Shown here piece by piece: positions 1,667 to 8,269 of a stretch of DNA of 21,871 bases (within the stretch, counting starts at the first letter, position 1; the number at the start of each line of letters is the position of its first letter). Made by a program: the position numbers and the translations under genes. The stretch lies in IMG/VR virus record IMGVR_UViG_3300007351_000317, positions 1 through 21,871 of that record; one strand, given 5' to 3'. The notes under the pieces were generated by a model. The model was given only the letters and a program-made list of their open reading frames with translations. It did no database searches and had not been told where the DNA came from. The DNA comes from a virus.

Positions 1667-2031
1667 CAGGCGAAATTATCCTGCGGACGTTTGAGGATAT
1701 ATTTGCTGGCCAGATCGTGCACGAAAACCGAGCCGCGCCCGACCGCGTATCCCGTGGCGATATATCCGACCCAGGTGCCAGATTGATACAGCCCGAGCAC
1801 CACGATCCAGCCCGGGAACAGCTCCAGTAGCCAGATCGAGAGCATTGCGATCAGATCGAGTTTATAGAAAAATGTGAGCCCAACTCCAACGAGCAGGGCT
1901 ATGTACATGAGCAGCCATTTATACGGTGTTAGTTGAGGAATTTTGTTGAACGGCGTCCCAAAAACGTATTCGACCGCGCTCTCCGTGATGAACGCCAGGA
2001 GAAAAACGATTGCGAGCAATCCGAAAACCAT
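1666..2031 (-). CDS. Multi-helix membrane protein, putative holin
   Basis: A 121-residue protein with about three hydrophobic segments: near 2-15 (VFGLLAIVFLLAFI), 38-55 (LLMYIALLVGVGLTFF) and 62-85 (LIAMLSIWLLELFPGWIVVLG). The C-terminus is basic. Size and topology suit a class I-type holin, and it is the first gene of the lysis operon. The start at 2031 is well supported: a perfect AGGAGGT Shine-Dalgarno (2041-2035) lies 3 bases from the ATG. An upstream in-frame start at 2118 would translate through a strong terminator hairpin and is rejected. That terminator sits directly between the promoter and this ribosome-binding site, so expression should need readthrough or antitermination. Confidence 0.7.
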   Translation of the reverse strand: MVFGLLAIVFLLAFITESAVEYVFGTPFNKIPQLTPYKWLLMYIALLVGVGLTFFYKLDLIAMLSIWLLELFPGWIVVLGLYQSGTWVGYIATGYAVGRGSVFVHDLASKYILKRPQDNFA

Positions 2032-2046
2032 ATGACCTCCTATAAC

Positions 2047-2085
2047 AAAAAAGACCTGGGCCGCGCAATTGGCGCGACCCAGGTC
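2047..2085 (-). terminator. Intrinsic terminator directly upstream of the lysis genes
   Basis: On the minus strand, GACCTGGG (2085-2078) pairs with CCCAGGTC (2060-2053), and the stem continues through GCGCC/GCGC to about 14 base pairs with one mismatch around an AATT-type loop. It is followed at once by six T residues (2052-2047). This is a textbook rho-independent terminator. It ends only 6 bases before the holin Shine-Dalgarno, so no promoter fits between it and the holin gene. Confidence 0.88.
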
Positions 2086-2126
2086 TGATGACTGTCTCAG
2101 GTCGTGGAATCTATTCAATTAATTAC

Positions 2127-2154
2127 ATTATAAGCGCGTTTTTAAATAATTCAA
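2127..2154 (-). promoter_or_regulatory. Sigma-70-type late promoter for the lysis operon
   Basis: Read on the minus strand there is a perfect -10 TATAAT (2132-2127) and a -35 TTGAAT (2154-2149) with a 16-bp spacer in AT-rich DNA. Transcription would start near 2120 and meet the terminator hairpin after about 35 bases. The order promoter, early terminator, lysis genes matches the pR'-tR' late control region of lambdoid phages. Confidence 0.72.
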
Positions 2155-2172
2155 TCTTAATATTTTCCTAGA

Positions 2173-2193
2173 ACGGGTGCAAAACGGGTGCAA
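2173..2193. repeat. Tandem ACGGGTGCAA repeats, left arm of putative attP
   Basis: Two exact copies of ACGGGTGCAA (2173-2182 and 2184-2193) with an 11-bp period, about 120 bp from the half-tRNA core. Related copies lie on the other side at 2457-2475. Paired short repeats flanking a core are typical arm-type binding sites of tyrosine integrases. Confidence 0.6.
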
Positions 2194-2311
2194 TCTTTAT
2201 GGTGATGATGTTTATGATGGTATAGATGTAATAAATCCGGCCTGTTTTTGGCCGAAAATGGGGTAAAATCGGGACTATTGGTGCGTATGTTGCCGGTGGT
2301 TTTGCGGCGCG

Positions 2312-2358
2312 CTTCAATCGCACTGAAGAGGTCGAGGGTTCGAATCCCTCCAGGTCCA
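2312..2358 (+). other. 3' half of a tRNA gene: putative attP core
   Basis: A 47-base segment folds as the 3' half of a class I tRNA. It has an anticodon stem CTTCA/TGAAG with a 7-base loop containing U33 and positional anticodon CGC (Ala-like, tentative). It continues with a canonical AGGTC variable loop, a GAGGG-TTCGAAT-CCCTC T-arm, and the 3' acceptor strand CAGGTCC plus A73. No matching 5' acceptor strand (GGACCTG) or normal D-arm lies upstream, so it is not a functional tRNA. Identity running from anticodon stem to 3' end is typical of phage attachment cores that restore a host tRNA on integration. Phage genes lie on both sides. Confidence 0.75.
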
Positions 2359-2443: not shown

Positions 2444-2456
2444 TTTTATTTAAATC

Positions 2457-2475
2457 CGGGTGCGACTAGGTGCAA
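2457..2475. repeat. Tandem GGTGC repeats, right arm of putative attP
   Basis: CGGGTGCGA (2457-2465) and TAGGTGCAA (2467-2475) share the GGTGC core of the left-arm repeats, here with a 10-bp period, about 100 bp to the right of the half-tRNA. Confidence 0.5.
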
Positions 2476-2549
2476 TATCGAGATTGAGGAGGTTGTGCGG
2501 GGGTTGTGCTGTGCGTGCGTGCTGTGCGGGTTGTGCGGGGGGTACCCTC

Positions 2550-2610
2550 ACCCCGACCCTCTCCCTAGAGGGAGAGGGTCGGGGTCGGGCGCCCCGGGTG
2601 GGGCGCTTTT
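2550..2610. repeat. REP-like long GC palindrome and adjoining GC hairpin
   Basis: CCCCGACCCTCTCCCT (2551-2566) and its exact complement (2569-2584) form a nearly loopless 16-17 bp palindrome of the CCCTCTCCC/GGGAGAGGG type that is common between genes in many bacteria. A second hairpin, GCGCCCC-GGGT-GGGGCGC (2589-2606), follows with TTTT on the plus strand and touches the stop of the DnaA-like gene. For minus-strand transcripts these structures lie just past that gene and could terminate or protect the 3' end. The bases just left of it (about 2491-2540) are a G/T-rich run with repeated TTGTGCGGG. Confidence 0.7.
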
Positions 2611-2830
2611 AGCGGGTGAGGTTGAGGCTGCGGTGGATTTTGGTTTCGAGATCGGGGAGCAGCTGTTCGACCTCGTCGATGATGCGCATGGAGCGCAGGG
2701 CGGTGGAGCGGTGGCCGAGGTCGAACAGGTCGGCGATTTCCTGGTAGGTGAGCATGCGCAGGTGGTGGCGCAGGAAATACATGAGCATCAGGCGGGCGGC
2801 GTGGGAGGGGGTGCGGGTGTCAGCGCACAT
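2609..2830 (-). CDS. Stand-alone DnaA domain IV-like DNA-binding protein
   Basis: A 73-residue protein that matches the C-terminal DNA-binding domain of DnaA over nearly its whole length. A helix with AARLMLMYFLR (11-21) precedes a helix-turn-helix, LTYQEIADLFDLGHRSTALR (27-46). GHRSTA there aligns with the DnaA signature (G)RDHSTV that reads the DnaA box. A last helix resembles LETKIHRSL. There is no AAA+ or domain I, so it cannot be an initiator alone. It might occupy DnaA boxes, regulate transcription, or act with the initiator at 12932-14041, which carries the opposite end of DnaA. It overlaps the upstream gene by 11 bases. It is the last gene before the late promoter, where lambdoid phages keep the antiterminator Q; that link is speculation. 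Confidence 0.72.
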   Translation of the reverse strand: MCADTRTPSHAARLMLMYFLRHHLRMLTYQEIADLFDLGHRSTALRSMRIIDEVEQLLPDLETKIHRSLNLTR

Positions 2831-3449
2831 CAGTTTTTCGACCTGGTTTTGGGCGATTGTCGAGATAATGATTCATCCCGTCGTATGGGATTAGCCAATC
2901 TCTGCCGATTTTGCGGGCGCCCGGAATGTATCCATTCTTCGCCGCGAGTCGGATCCCGCGCGCTGTGGCTTTCTCGCCGACTTCGTGGGCATAGTTTTCC
3001 GCCTGGCCAACGGTCATTTCGTTGTGGATCTGCCCTTTTACGGGCTGCTCTCCCCCGATTTTGCCAATAGTGGCGCCGTAATCCCAGTAGCCCGGCTGGT
3101 CGCTGTCGGCAAAAATCCTATCAGCCCAACTATCTGGTAGCAGGTATCCGATGTCGTCCACAATAATTATTTGCCGTCTCATATCTTCTAGTTTTGCGTC
3201 AGGCTTATTTACATAGTCTGCCCATTGGCCAGAGTAGCTGCTTCCACCGGCCTGCAAATGCCACACTGTATCGAGCATCACAATACTACCGCCACACTCT
3301 TTGATGGACGGTCCATCTGCCGGGTGCGCAAAGAGCACATCTGGGTGATATATCGGATCAGAGTAAGCAATTCCCAATCTACCACGATCATCGATTACAA
3401 CGTATTGCCGGATAACTGGCTTATTGTTCGGCCATGTATACTCTTTCAT
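2820..3449 (-). CDS. Hypothetical protein with C-terminal helix-turn-helix
   Basis: A 209-residue protein. The N-terminal ~140 residues are unrecognised, with beta-rich segments such as RQIIIVDDIGYLLPD (92-106). The C-terminal part (about 145-200: MTVGQAENYAHEVG, IRLAAKNGYIPGARKIGRDW) looks like an excisionase/MerR-type winged helix in which GARKIGRDWLIP forms the wing. This suggests a DNA-binding regulator with a separate N-terminal domain. A strong GAGGAG ribosome site sits 6 bases before the ATG and overlaps the end of ibrB, whose stop is 3 bases upstream, so the two are co-translated. It belongs to the cargo cassette driven from 5750. Function unknown. Confidence 0.65.
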   Translation of the reverse strand: MKEYTWPNNKPVIRQYVVIDDRGRLGIAYSDPIYHPDVLFAHPADGPSIKECGGSIVMLDTVWHLQAGGSSYSGQWADYVNKPDAKLEDMRRQIIIVDDIGYLLPDSWADRIFADSDQPGYWDYGATIGKIGGEQPVKGQIHNEMTVGQAENYAHEVGEKATARGIRLAAKNGYIPGARKIGRDWLIPYDGMNHYLDNRPKPGRKTDVR

Positions 3450-3452
3450 GGT

Positions 3453-4115
3453 TTACTCCTCTGTGTATGGGTCGATTTCCCACGCCTCACTAAAATCTTC
3501 GTTGGCAAACATTTCTGCCAACCCGGTGATTTGCTTCAAGCGCAGGACTTCATCCGGGTCCATCCCAAGCTCGCGCCCAATTTTGGCGTCTGACCAATTG
3601 CGGCGCGCCAACTCAACCACAATATCGCTCATAGCTGAGATTTGATGCTTGCCTCTTGCCCGGTTGTGGCGTATCGTAGATGCAATTCGGTCGCCGCGAT
3701 CATGGCGATTCTCGTTTACCGTTGTCACAGGGAGATATCCCCGTATTCGCTCTCTGATAGTTTTACACTCCTGGCCTACGCGGTTGCGATGGAAGCCGTC
3801 AATTACCTCGCGCTTGCCATCGTCAACCCAGGTGACAATGGGTTGAGTATAGCCATCCTCCAGGATACTAGTTTCGAGCAAGCGCATTTCTGGCGGGGCA
3901 ACCTTATTGGGGTTGTAGTCGTTGGCCAAAACCGTATCGCAGGGCACCCAGATCACGCAATCAATCGGCTCATTTTTAAATGGACTGATTTCATGTAACG
4001 CCATTTTGATTATGTTAATAGCATCGATACGCTCTTCCTCGGGCATATCTGCGATTTCATTTTGTAAAACCGCATTGATAATTTGCATCCAACCACTTTT
4101 GATTATCGTCTCCAT
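3453..4115 (-). CDS. ibrB: IbrB-like ParB/sulfiredoxin-fold protein
   Basis: A 220-residue protein of the ParB/Srx superfamily. After a helical N-terminus (1-48), the ParB-like core shows IWVPCDTVLANDYNPNKV (55-72), TQPIVTW (90-96) and the nucleotide-binding signature VIDGFHR (104-110). STIRHNRARGKH (146-157) and a helix-turn-helix near 174-196 (SDAKIGRELGMDPDEVLRL) follow. In Enterobacteria the IbrB family is always paired with IbrA, a PAPS-reductase-like protein, and the two were described as regulators of prophage-borne immunoglobulin-binding genes; their biochemistry is unresolved. Here the ibrA-like gene is directly upstream and overlaps by 13 bases, which makes the pair assignment strong. 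It is distinct from the partition-type ParB at 11443-12627. Confidence 0.82.
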   Translation of the reverse strand: METIIKSGWMQIINAVLQNEIADMPEEERIDAINIIKMALHEISPFKNEPIDCVIWVPCDTVLANDYNPNKVAPPEMRLLETSILEDGYTQPIVTWVDDGKREVIDGFHRNRVGQECKTIRERIRGYLPVTTVNENRHDRGDRIASTIRHNRARGKHQISAMSDIVVELARRNWSDAKIGRELGMDPDEVLRLKQITGLAEMFANEDFSEAWEIDPYTEE

Positions 4116-5365
4116 AATGGGATATATCCTCTCAGGCGCTTTCGGTCTGCCATATATTTACGATAGCGGTCATAATGGGGAGATGAGGTTGGTACAAAAC
4201 CAATCCCTTTGCACCAATAGTCGCTACGCAGTAAGGATTTACATATCCGTTTCCAGGATGGCGCTTTCTTGGCTACCTCTAGCTTATGATCAACTTCGTC
4301 TGGGATACTGCCGTAAATCGGGTAGAAATTTCCATCATCATCCCAATAGCCGCCCCTCTCCATCCACCATCCGATAAACGTAAAAATCTTGTTGTCGTAA
4401 TGCTCGGCTAAATTTTGTGGCATTGATTTCAGAAGGAGCAAAGCAAAGCTCCTCCAGGTGTGCCCAGCAGGTTTATGGATTTTGATCTGGCCCGAGATAT
4501 TGCCGCTGTATTTGACAAACTCAGCCCCACTGTTGGCGCCATTGACGCGCGCCACAATTTTTGACCAGGTCTCTGGCTCGAGGATATGAAAAAGCCATAA
4601 ACCCTTGCGCTGGTCCACTCCGTAGGGCTGACATAGGCGTGCCTGATGCAATGATAGACCGGCCTTGTGCATCAGGTCGTAAATACGATTATAGGGTTTG
4701 CCGAACTTGCCATGATAGCGCCAGATATCTTCGACTTTCCAATCATAAATTGGATGGATCGAGTACACCGGTTGGCTGGCCGACTTTTGTTTCAGCGCCC
4801 ACATGTTGTCGCCGTGAAATTCTCGGTTGTGCCTGACAGCCAGTTTCAGGTGGCGGTTGTAGCTTTCCTCTGTGCGGATGCCGATGAATGCTGCACAATC
4901 CTGCCCCTGGCTGTACCACTCGCCAAAGGCAGGCACAAATTCTTCAAACTCCATTGCGTAGCTGTAGAAGGGGAAATAGTTCTGATCCCCGATGCTGTTT
5001 GACGGGCGCGGCCTGACCCAGTCGAAGCCCGGCTCCCAGCAGATCCAGCGCGGCTGATATTCCGACACCCCATTGTCAAGCGAGATAGGCAGCGTTACCC
5101 AGTATGGTTCAATGATGTCCGCATATAGCTCGTACATCGTCGCCACATGCTCGTAGGTGTGACGGTACTGGGCTTCAAAGTCTACACACAGCAAGCCGAT
5201 TTTGTGCTGGCGTCGTCTGGCTTCTTCGGCGACCAGGTGCAGCATGGCAGTGGAGTCTTTCCCGCCGCTAAATGAAACGTATATGCGCGGGAAGTGATCG
5301 AATACATACGCCACCCTTTTACGGGCGGCGTCGTAGACGTTTATTCCGAGATAGCGTTTTGGCAT
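4103..5365 (-). CDS. ibrA: IbrA-like PAPS reductase-family protein (DUF3440)
   Basis: A 420-residue ATP-pyrophosphatase-fold protein. The PP-loop is SGGKDS (33-38) after the strand IYVSF, and LLCVDFEAQYRHTYEHV matches the second PAPS-reductase strand. The C-terminal half carries the DUF3440-type region (TWRSFALLLLKSMP, then FIGWWMERGGYWDD). Length is close to known IbrA proteins (about 400). The family shares its fold with enzymes that adenylate sulfur or nucleoside substrates, including DndC of DNA phosphorothioation, but the IbrA substrate is not known. The start at 5365 shares one base with the upstream stop (TAATG); a longer reading from 5404 is less likely. It may be a regulator, a nucleic-acid modifier or a defence function; only the pair with IbrB is secure. 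Confidence 0.85.
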   Translation of the reverse strand: MPKRYLGINVYDAARKRVAYVFDHFPRIYVSFSGGKDSTAMLHLVAEEARRRQHKIGLLCVDFEAQYRHTYEHVATMYELYADIIEPYWVTLPISLDNGVSEYQPRWICWEPGFDWVRPRPSNSIGDQNYFPFYSYAMEFEEFVPAFGEWYSQGQDCAAFIGIRTEESYNRHLKLAVRHNREFHGDNMWALKQKSASQPVYSIHPIYDWKVEDIWRYHGKFGKPYNRIYDLMHKAGLSLHQARLCQPYGVDQRKGLWLFHILEPETWSKIVARVNGANSGAEFVKYSGNISGQIKIHKPAGHTWRSFALLLLKSMPQNLAEHYDNKIFTFIGWWMERGGYWDDDGNFYPIYGSIPDEVDHKLEVAKKAPSWKRICKSLLRSDYWCKGIGFVPTSSPHYDRYRKYMADRKRLRGYIPLWRR

Positions 5366-5697
5366 TAGTTTGCTTCGCAGTCGCCGTAGCAGTAGGAGCC
5401 ACATTTGCGGCAGTAGCCATTCTGCCCGTGTTTTGGCTCTAGATCATAGTCGTAATCTTCTTCGATTCTCGGGGGCTTCTGTTCTTGGAGTGCCCAGAGT
5501 TCGGTCCAAAATTCTTTTGCTGCCTGGCGGATATCGCTTTCTACTTCTTCGCCATTATTCCAGCGCATCTGGTAAATCTCACGACCGCTCGGCTTGTGGG
5601 TCAGGCAATTACCGCTGGTGCCGTCCCAATAATTCCACGAAAAAAGATCGTTCTCTGCTTTCTCAAAATTGAATTTTGTATCGGTTATGATTGCCAT
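5365..5697 (-). CDS. Hypothetical protein with C-terminal Cys cluster
   Basis: A 110-residue protein, unrecognised, and first gene of the IbrA/IbrB cassette. The N-terminal part is rich in Trp, Asn and acidic residues (FSWNYWDGTSGN). The C-terminus has a small zinc-ribbon-like cluster, YCRKCGSYCYGDCEAN, with four cysteines as CxxC-x3-C-x3-C. A strong Shine-Dalgarno (AAAGGAG, 6-7 bases before the ATG) follows a near-consensus promoter, so it should be the best expressed gene of the cassette. Its stop overlaps the ibrA start. It may be a third partner of the IbrA/B pair or a small regulator. Confidence 0.65.
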   Translation of the reverse strand: MAIITDTKFNFEKAENDLFSWNYWDGTSGNCLTHKPSGREIYQMRWNNGEEVESDIRQAAKEFWTELWALQEQKPPRIEEDYDYDLEPKHGQNGYCRKCGSYCYGDCEAN

Positions 5698-5800: not shown

Positions 5801-6718
5801 CTATAAATTCCAATTTGCCACCGGGCTGGCGTGGTGGTGGCGCGCTTCGATGTCGGCCTGGGCGATGGAGAGATAGCGTTTGACCATATCCATCGAGGTG
5901 TGCCCGAGCAGGATTTGCAGGGTATAGGGATCGCCGCCGTTGCGCAGGTAGGTGATGGCGAAGGTGTGACGGAAACGGTGGCAGGTGACAGCGTGCACGC
6001 CGGCGTGCTCTCCGATGGATTGGAGCTGTTTGGTCAGGCGGGTGCGAGTGAGGGTGCGCCCGGCGGCTTCGAAAAGCGGGGCGTTGATCGGCTCATCTTT
6101 GCGGGGCAGCAGGTAGCGCCAAATCGCCTGCCCGGTCTGGGCGACGAACGGAAGAGTGCGTTCCTTAGCCCCCTTGCCGAAGACGCGGATGCGGCGGTTG
6201 CGCAGATCGAGCTGGTTGATTTTGGCTTCGGCAAGCTCAGAGGCGCGCATGCCGGTATCGAGCAGCAGCAGGATGATGGCGCGGTTGCGGTCCACGTTGG
6301 GCAGGGAGTGGTTGGAGGCTTTTTTGCCCGGGCGTTTGTATTTATTGGTGCGCTCCAGGCTGTTGAGCATGGCCTGCAGATCGGCCTGGGTGTAGGGGGC
6401 GATGGTGCGTTTCTCCGGCTCGGGTGGATCCACGCGGCGGACGGTGTGCTCGTGCACCAAGTTTTCCTTGAGCGCCCAGGTCCATAGGGCCGATAGGCCG
6501 GTGTGGTAGTTCAGGGCGGTTTTGGCGGAGACGGGCTGGGCGGCAATGAACTGGGTAATCTGGCGGCGGGTGATGGTCTCCAAGGGCGGGTCATCATCCA
6601 GCCAGCGGCTGAATTTGCGATAGGTGGTGAAATAGTCACTGAGGGTGTGTTTGCTCAGGCGGCGGGCCTGGCAATAGAGCTCGAAGCCTTCGAGGGCCTG
6701 GGTAAAGGTGATTTGCAT
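5801..6718 (-). CDS. Xer-like tyrosine recombinase
   Basis: A complete 305-residue tyrosine recombinase. The N-terminal core-binding (SAM-like) domain spans about 1-95, and the catalytic domain has all conserved residues: R158 (TGMRASEL), K182 (FGKGAK), H247 and R250 (HRFRH), H273 (LLGHTS) and nucleophile Y282 (RYLSIA). It lacks the extra arm-binding domain of classical phage integrases, so it resembles XerC/XerD or plasmid resolvases. A GGAGG Shine-Dalgarno lies 8 bases before the ATG. It lies just downstream of the classical integrase. Multimer resolution or an alternative integration route are both possible. It starts about 220 bp past the integrase stop, so it may be transcribed with it or alone. 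Confidence 0.88.
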   Translation of the reverse strand: MQITFTQALEGFELYCQARRLSKHTLSDYFTTYRKFSRWLDDDPPLETITRRQITQFIAAQPVSAKTALNYHTGLSALWTWALKENLVHEHTVRRVDPPEPEKRTIAPYTQADLQAMLNSLERTNKYKRPGKKASNHSLPNVDRNRAIILLLLDTGMRASELAEAKINQLDLRNRRIRVFGKGAKERTLPFVAQTGQAIWRYLLPRKDEPINAPLFEAAGRTLTRTRLTKQLQSIGEHAGVHAVTCHRFRHTFAITYLRNGGDPYTLQILLGHTSMDMVKRYLSIAQADIEARHHHASPVANWNL

Positions 6719-6846
6719 CCGTGTATCCTCCGGTCTGTGCAGGTTTGCACTGATAATTTACTGGACAGCGCTGATAATTATTTGCGCTGTTTTTTTTGAC
6801 CGGAGACGGCGAACCGTGTGTTGTCTGGTGGGGGGTGTTTTGGCGA

Positions 6847-6918
6847 TTTTTGGCGTTTTTTGCATTTTTACCCCCCCATATCTGGGGGTATGTTGGAGGC
6901 CTCAAATAGCGCCAAAAA
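6847..6918. repeat. Symmetrical inverted-repeat element between the two recombinases
   Basis: TTTTTGGCG (6847-6855) and its complement CGCCAAAAA (6910-6918) flank a central hairpin TACCCCC...GGGGGTA (6869-6890). The region between recombinase genes (6719-6942) is otherwise gene-free. The nested symmetry suggests a protein-binding or recombination site. No T-run makes it a convincing terminator on either strand. Confidence 0.4.
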
Positions 6919-6942
6919 ACTGTTTTTCGGCCGATTTTGCTA

Positions 6943-8091
6943 TTATTTTTCTGATTTTTCCGTCTCCACGCTCCATTCCACCGGCGCGACCAGCTCATCC
7001 ATCATGTCGCCCACGCCGGCATCCAACCCTGGGATCAGGTGCCCGTAGATATCCAGCGTGATGGAGACACGCGCGTGCCCCAGTATCCTGGAGACGACGA
7101 TTGGCGGTCGCCCGTGGCTGAGCATGATGGCCGCTGCCGTGTGGCGCAGATCGTGGAAGCGGATCGGTTTGACGCCAGCAGCCTGGACCAGCGGTTTGAA
7201 ATAGCGATCCACCAGATTTTTATGGTGCACCGGCGTGCCGGTGGTGGATGTAAATATCAGCCCATGCTCCAACCATCCGCTGCCCGCCAGGCGCCGCTCA
7301 CGCGCCTGCAGCGCCAGGTGGGCGCGCAGCACGTCCAGGGTGCCGGCGCCCAGGCTGATCGTGCGTTTGGCGCGGGCGGTTTTTTGCGGTCCGAAGATCT
7401 CGTCTCCGGAGCGCAGCAATTGGCGCTGGATGCGTAACTGCCCGCCCGTCCAATCCAGGTCGCTCCACTGCAGGCCGCACAACTCCATCTGCCGGCCGCC
7501 GCTCACGATGGCCAAATAAAATAATGCATATAACCGGTTGCCGCGCGCCGCCATCAGGAAACGATTGGCCTCGGTCTCGCTCCAGAATTTCATTTCCTGC
7601 GCCGGCGCGGCCGGCGGCCTGGCTGCATCGCTCGGGTTGCGGGCGGCCAGCCCGGTCTCCACGGCGCGCCGGAGCGCCTCGTGCAGCACAGCGTGCATTT
7701 TGATGAGCGTGTGCGCGCCGACCCCGGCGCGAGTGAGCTCGTCGTAGCAAAATTGCACCAGGTCGGGCGAGAGGTCCTTGACCAGCGCGTCGCCGATGGA
7801 AGGGATCAAATATTTGTCGATCAGTAATTTATAGTGGGAGTAGGTGCTAGCTCGCAGCGATCCCTGCACGCCGGCCAGCCAGCGCTGCAGGTGATCGGCC
7901 AGACTGACACGCGCCTGGTCGTAGGTCAATCCCATCCCGATCTGGCCGGTGGTTTTGCGCAGCCATTCGGCCACAACGCTCCGTTTGGTGTGCGTTTTGG
8001 AGAGACGTTTGCCCCCAACAGAGACCTGGGCGCGCCATTTGCCGTCCGCCCGTTTGTAGATGGTGCCCTCACCGTGGCCTCGTTTTGCCAT
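6943..8091 (-). CDS. int: Phage integrase, tyrosine recombinase with arm-binding domain
   Basis: A 382-residue integrase with three domains. An N-terminal AP2-like arm-binding domain (1-45: GHGEGTIYKRADGKWRAQV) is followed by a core-binding domain (about 60-160) and a catalytic domain. The last has R200 (SGGRQMEL), K237 (PQKTAR), H313 and R316 (RFHDLRHT), H339 (ILGHAR) and nucleophile Y349 (LDIYGHL). All catalytic positions are present. I prefer the ATG at 8091; a GTG at 8142 would lie deep inside the upstream excisionase gene. The classical integrase-with-excisionase order suggests this enzyme acts on the attP-like site at 2173-2475, although that site is unusually far (4.5 kb) from the gene. 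Confidence 0.9.
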   Translation of the reverse strand: MAKRGHGEGTIYKRADGKWRAQVSVGGKRLSKTHTKRSVVAEWLRKTTGQIGMGLTYDQARVSLADHLQRWLAGVQGSLRASTYSHYKLLIDKYLIPSIGDALVKDLSPDLVQFCYDELTRAGVGAHTLIKMHAVLHEALRRAVETGLAARNPSDAARPPAAPAQEMKFWSETEANRFLMAARGNRLYALFYLAIVSGGRQMELCGLQWSDLDWTGGQLRIQRQLLRSGDEIFGPQKTARAKRTISLGAGTLDVLRAHLALQARERRLAGSGWLEHGLIFTSTTGTPVHHKNLVDRYFKPLVQAAGVKPIRFHDLRHTAAAIMLSHGRPPIVVSRILGHARVSITLDIYGHLIPGLDAGVGDMMDELVAPVEWSVETEKSEK

Positions 8092-8269
8092 TATTTGTGG
8101 TATGAGATTCGATAAATTTTTCGAGGTCCGCGCGCCGGACACGCACCGTATTGCCGAAGCGCACCGCCGGCAACTCGCGTCCCATCAGCCGGTAGGCCTG
8201 GGTGCGGCTGACGCCCAGGATCGCGGCCACGTCGGCCGGTTTCAATAAGCGCTCGATTTCCTCATCCAT
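8069..8269 (-). CDS. Excisionase-like HTH protein
   Basis: A 66-residue MerR/excisionase-family (HTH_17) DNA-binding protein. Its helix-turn-helix LLKPADVAAILGVSRTQAYR (8-27) and wing AVRFGNTVRVRRADLEKFIE are near-perfect family matches. Proteins of this size directly before an integrase act as Xis or AlpA-like directionality factors that bend attP/attR DNA. The 3' end overlaps the integrase start by 23 bases. There is no clear Shine-Dalgarno, and the upstream gene stops only 6 bases away, so translation is probably coupled. Confidence 0.87.
   Translation of the reverse strand: MDEEIERLLKPADVAAILGVSRTQAYRLMGRELPAVRFGNTVRVRRADLEKFIESHTTNNGKTRPR

Follow-up and report, generated by a model that had tools for sequence, protein, structure and literature searches.

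The lysis genes of this phage are probably governed by a late promoter with a promoter-proximal attenuator that works like pR'-tR' of lambda, and such control is supported because the layout lies far above chance and recurs at the lysis cassettes of divergent phages. The window (the whole stretch of 21,871 nucleotides that was analysed) carries on its minus strand, between 2154 and 2127, a sigma-70-type promoter that scores 10/12 in the promoter scan, with a -35 element TTGAAT (2149-2154), a 16-nt spacer (TATTTAAAAACGCGCT) and a perfect -10 element TATAAT (2127-2132), from which transcription would be expected to start at about 2120. A predicted leader of about 34 nt (2087-2120), mostly unstructured, runs into an intrinsic terminator on the same strand (2047-2086) with a 15-bp stem (AGACCTGGGTCGCGC/GCGCGGCCCAGGTCT, 2086-2052, 11 GC among the 15 bp), a 5-nt loop and a U-tract of unpaired Ts at 2051-2047. 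The preliminary description had reported a perfect TATAAT promoter followed after about 35 bases by a strong terminator, and this is confirmed: the distance is 34 nt from the expected start and 40 nt from the -10 element, the terminator is the strongest of the whole window, the leader folds much better than shuffled sequences (z -5.0 to -6.8) and 200 dinucleotide shuffles of the window's full sequence did not once give a promoter of at least 10/12 within 200 nt upstream of a terminator of at least 8 bp. Directly after the U-tract come GTTAT, the Shine-Dalgarno (SD) sequence AGGAGG (2036-2041, minus strand) and the ATG of the putative holin gene at 2031, and the 5 bases separating U-tract and SD leave no room for a second promoter, as had been claimed.

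Along the minus strand the order is a DnaA-like ORF (2830-2609), some 450 non-coding bases, promoter, terminator, SD, the putative holin (1666-2031, 121 aa), a second small lysis-cassette protein (1391-1666, 91 aa), a putative endolysin with an SH3_3 domain at its C-terminus (387-1382, 331 aa) and an HNH endonuclease (31-420) at the contig end. Relatives of the holin precede endolysin genes that are GH25-like, a character judged from their sequences; neither holin nor endolysin gave a match among GenBank phages. The expectation that lysis genes lead to HNH was correct, but the terminase placed beyond it falls outside the window because the contig ends first; the same cassette in a relative, L008, leads to TerS and TerL. 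Positions 1-13 (GCTCTTCCGATCT) at the contig start look like a sequencing adapter remnant, and an identical IMG/VR contig (L009, 0 mismatches over its own length) stops at the same end as the window.

A strict scan (promoter of at least 10/12, terminator of at least 8 bp, SD and an ORF of at least 60 aa) of 265 kb of phage loci, a sample that is not random because it was fetched partly via lysis and terminase genes, returned exactly four cases from four divergent phages: the window, L008, L057 and virus Rctr41k (L065). All four lie at the first gene of a lysis or pre-terminase cassette, and in at least two (L057, L065) the first genes are unrelated. The strict scan gave no case in four other whole phage genomes, lambda included, the lambda tR' being missed because of its large loop. 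When the scan was relaxed (loops up to 45, promoter 9/12) lambda pR'-tR' was recovered as a positive control, but several pairs were also reported elsewhere and therefore only the strict scan is specific. L008 retains the order of the window, with a DnaA-like fragment (58% over 31 residues with the window ORF), a TTGACA promoter, leader, terminator, holin (42% identity to that of the window), a TerS-like gene and TerL. The TerL relatives L052 and L057, together with Rctr41k, begin with other genes but share the promoter type and likewise carry a hairpin ahead of the SD, and in all of these, as in L008, promoter and gene order lead toward TerS/TerL. Matches in L020 and L043 were judged spurious or too distant, and among the TerL relatives L058-L064 those with upstream genes listed showed no recognisable lysis cassette directly preceding TerL. 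A perfect (12/12) TTGACA-16-TATAAT promoter followed by a hairpin leader with long complementary arms was also seen in L010 (225-415, minus strand), which is not counted as a case because the promoter precedes early-looking genes.

In relatives, where the preliminary description had suggested checking the promoter-terminator spacing, the pair is conserved in part. Promoter and terminator recur together in L008, L057 and L065 and a terminator is present in the relative L024, but L052 has the hairpin with the U-tract missing, and L025, L026/L027, L028 and L037/L038 have promoter and leader with no U-tract or canonical terminator there. Since the structured leaders of some relatives lack a canonical terminator, that element is not universal, and judged by sequence the trait common to the holin group is a promoter plus leader region, with a canonical terminator in part of the group.

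Most likely, and most simply, the promoter is active without phage help, is blocked by its own terminator and is opened by an early product. Host RNA polymerase would start near 2120 unaided by the phage and would be halted at 2086-2047, leaving a leader RNA about 70 nt long and keeping the lysis, packaging and structural genes silent. After induction, or once infection is well advanced, an early product of the phage would let polymerase pass the terminator, and with this stop overridden the entire minus-strand late operon would be transcribed. The switch could be a Q- or AlpA-like protein that is loaded at the promoter and encoded just upstream, the first candidates being the DnaA-domain-IV-like ORF and a 209-aa HTH ORF; in the prophage state this terminator would, in addition, protect the lysis genes against transcription coming in from the host. 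We infer promoter activity, termination and a promoter-loaded switch protein alike from the sequence, and a Q-type protein mechanism is plausible by analogy.

The precedents for such a switch are the 21Q and lambda Q antiterminators (PMC6606751) and AlpA, an antiterminator with no sequence relation to Q whose target terminator is placed 54 nt downstream of the start and before a holin gene (PMC7969949). As in the lambda pR'-tR'-Q system, the window has a promoter, a leader and an intrinsic terminator followed by holin/endolysin genes and, to judge from L008, terminase beyond the contig end. Both also repeat the -35 hexamer downstream of the -35 element, the second TTGAAT of the window lying downstream of the -10 at 2118-2113, a weak feature (p about 0.04 in the window). 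Unlike lambda, the window has a pre-terminator leader of about 34 nt rather than about 134 (the spacing in the relaxed scan), a probable attP between early genes and late promoter and no Q homologue among the proteins scanned. The likeness to the alpBCDE system of Pseudomonas aeruginosa likewise extends to promoter, terminator and then holin gene (54 nt compared with about 34 nt in the window), but the promoter spacer of the window lacks GGGACGN5GGTA, the binding element of AlpA, and no AlpA homologue was identified in searches made with queries other than AlpA itself. The pR'-tR' control proposed earlier is thus upheld for layout and recurrence, but less so for a protein of the Q type: no antitermination family was matched, a Q-binding element was not identified (no direct repeat was seen in the 16-nt spacer, the TTGAAT repeat being the only one found) and the pause element does not exceed chance expectation, a -10-like TAGATT at +8 to +13 (4/6) being equalled by 47% of shuffles. 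The first ten transcribed positions of the window (AATTGAATAG) agree at 9/10, in register, with the lysis promoter of Rctr41k, which is their best match among 869 promoter-like sites, and this agreement may reflect a common pause signal.

That no Q homologue is recognisable agrees with the preliminary description, as neither Pfam nor PHROGs gave a Q homologue or any antitermination family among the proteins scanned, a set from which some small ORFs were left out and in which genome ends are missing. The gene proposed in its place encodes a protein of 73 aa (2609-2830, minus strand); it does resemble DnaA domain IV, but its score against Pfam Bac_DnaA_C is 22.4 bits, below the curated cut-off of 31.5, and its AlphaFold model consists of two long helices (pTM 0.51), with too little certainty to support a search by fold. 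Its position, likened to that of Q, is syntenic in the nearest relative, L008; of the upstream genes only this one was seen in the window and L008 alike (the L008 contig begins inside it), but the DnaA-domain family had no match in other phages with the layout, in a search whose sensitivity is low because the L008 fragment was also missed; nor did the ORF match GenBank phages. It is quite unlikely, if conceivable, that this protein is a new kind of processive antiterminator, loaded at the promoter and without relation to Q, AlpA or P7, by which the late operon of the phage group is opened. The second candidate regulator is the 209-aa protein (2820-3449, minus strand) with an HTH-like match at its C-terminus. 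Further upstream, at 3453-5404, a ParB-like gene is paired with a PAPS-reductase/DUF3440 gene. These may be further candidates, as they resemble genes of GenBank phages that are annotated IbrB/IbrA or 'co-activator of prophage gene expression'. Other elements that might bear on regulation were noted in relatives: in L008 (236-281), inverted, operator-like copies of ATCGTTACGAT immediately upstream of the -35 element, and in L065 (about 2990-3167) an unannotated small basic Cys-rich ORF, a possible regulator with a stop codon that overlaps the -35 element of its lysis promoter.

An alternative is that the leader RNA is itself the switch, either by attenuation or antitermination in cis or by controlling translation through a fold in which the SD is masked. 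Relatives do have structured leaders of about 100-260 nt, those lying before the holin genes of L025 (4755-4950), L026 (3110-3366), L028 (1480-1620) and L037 (1005-1110) having predicted closing stems and no U-tract. L008 (359-372), L052 (1620-1633) and L057 (1900-1913) have the motif GGAGRTGAGVGCCC in common at the 5' foot of the hairpin, and in the leader of the window, where that motif was not found, the word GACCU is able to pair with the SD region. However, the pre-terminator leader of the window is only about 34 nt long and nearly unstructured, no competitive antiterminator hairpin was seen, and Rfam returned no family beyond tRNA in the window and none above the gathering score on the leaders of the relatives searched (L025, L026 and L028 included). 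We therefore regard a switch made of leader RNA as unlikely for the window.

The DNA between the DnaA-like ORF and the late promoter (2172-2477) is a probable attP, which the preliminary description had missed, together with the insulator role it implies and the relatives' structured leaders without a U-tract. Its probable core is a tRNA-like sequence (2298-2358, plus strand; 35.4 bits against the Rfam tRNA family, but no ARAGORN call), the only Rfam match in the window, followed on the same strand by a terminator-like hairpin (2413-2443). On one side of it lies a tandem direct repeat of two copies of AACGGGTGCAA (2172-2193, plus strand), a probable integrase arm site, and on the other diverged copies CCGGGTGCGA and AGGTGCAA (2455-2477, plus strand); two tyrosine integrases are encoded at 5801-8142, several kb away. 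Neither the MAG nor its family yielded a long tRNA match close to identity, the best reaching about 80-82% over 51-56 bases, with others shorter, and the true host is therefore uncertain. A perfect 17-bp GC-rich inverted repeat (2550-2585) lies between the DnaA-like ORF and the att region. With a probable attP directly upstream, the lysis end of the prophage would lie next to host DNA, and the terminator would serve to insulate that end as well. It has to be asked whether insulation is the main role of the terminator, with the late genes expressed from a different promoter or by readthrough once the phage has excised. In Tn916 terminator T1, close to the element end, insulates genes from host transcription (PMC11658703), and the position and inward direction of the window terminator would fit such a role, given the inferred att on one side and the element genes on the other. 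Unlike Tn916, the window has a promoter, and a good one, between att and terminator, and whereas canT of Tn916 is a cis antiterminator, no structured RNA antiterminator was seen before the terminator of the window. Moreover, L057 and L065 have this promoter-terminator pair as well, with no att noticed at that place on unsystematic inspection, and near the holin gene no further promoter turned up, all of which argues that insulation is rather unlikely to be the main function. It is very unlikely that the promoter match is a by-product of an AT-rich att region (GC 0.315 over about 2100-2230 compared with 0.553 overall), with the terminator ending the early operon and the lysis genes expressed by leaky readthrough, as a separate, weaker terminator-like site lies upstream of the promoter (2236-2256, minus strand) and the pairing with the promoter is retained in L008, L057 and L065.

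Late control in the style of pR'-tR' is thus indicated in phages of uncultured bacteria that have no recognisable Q. The divergent phages, promoters and neighbouring genes brought together here make up a short list in which new antiterminators may be sought with one simple reporter.
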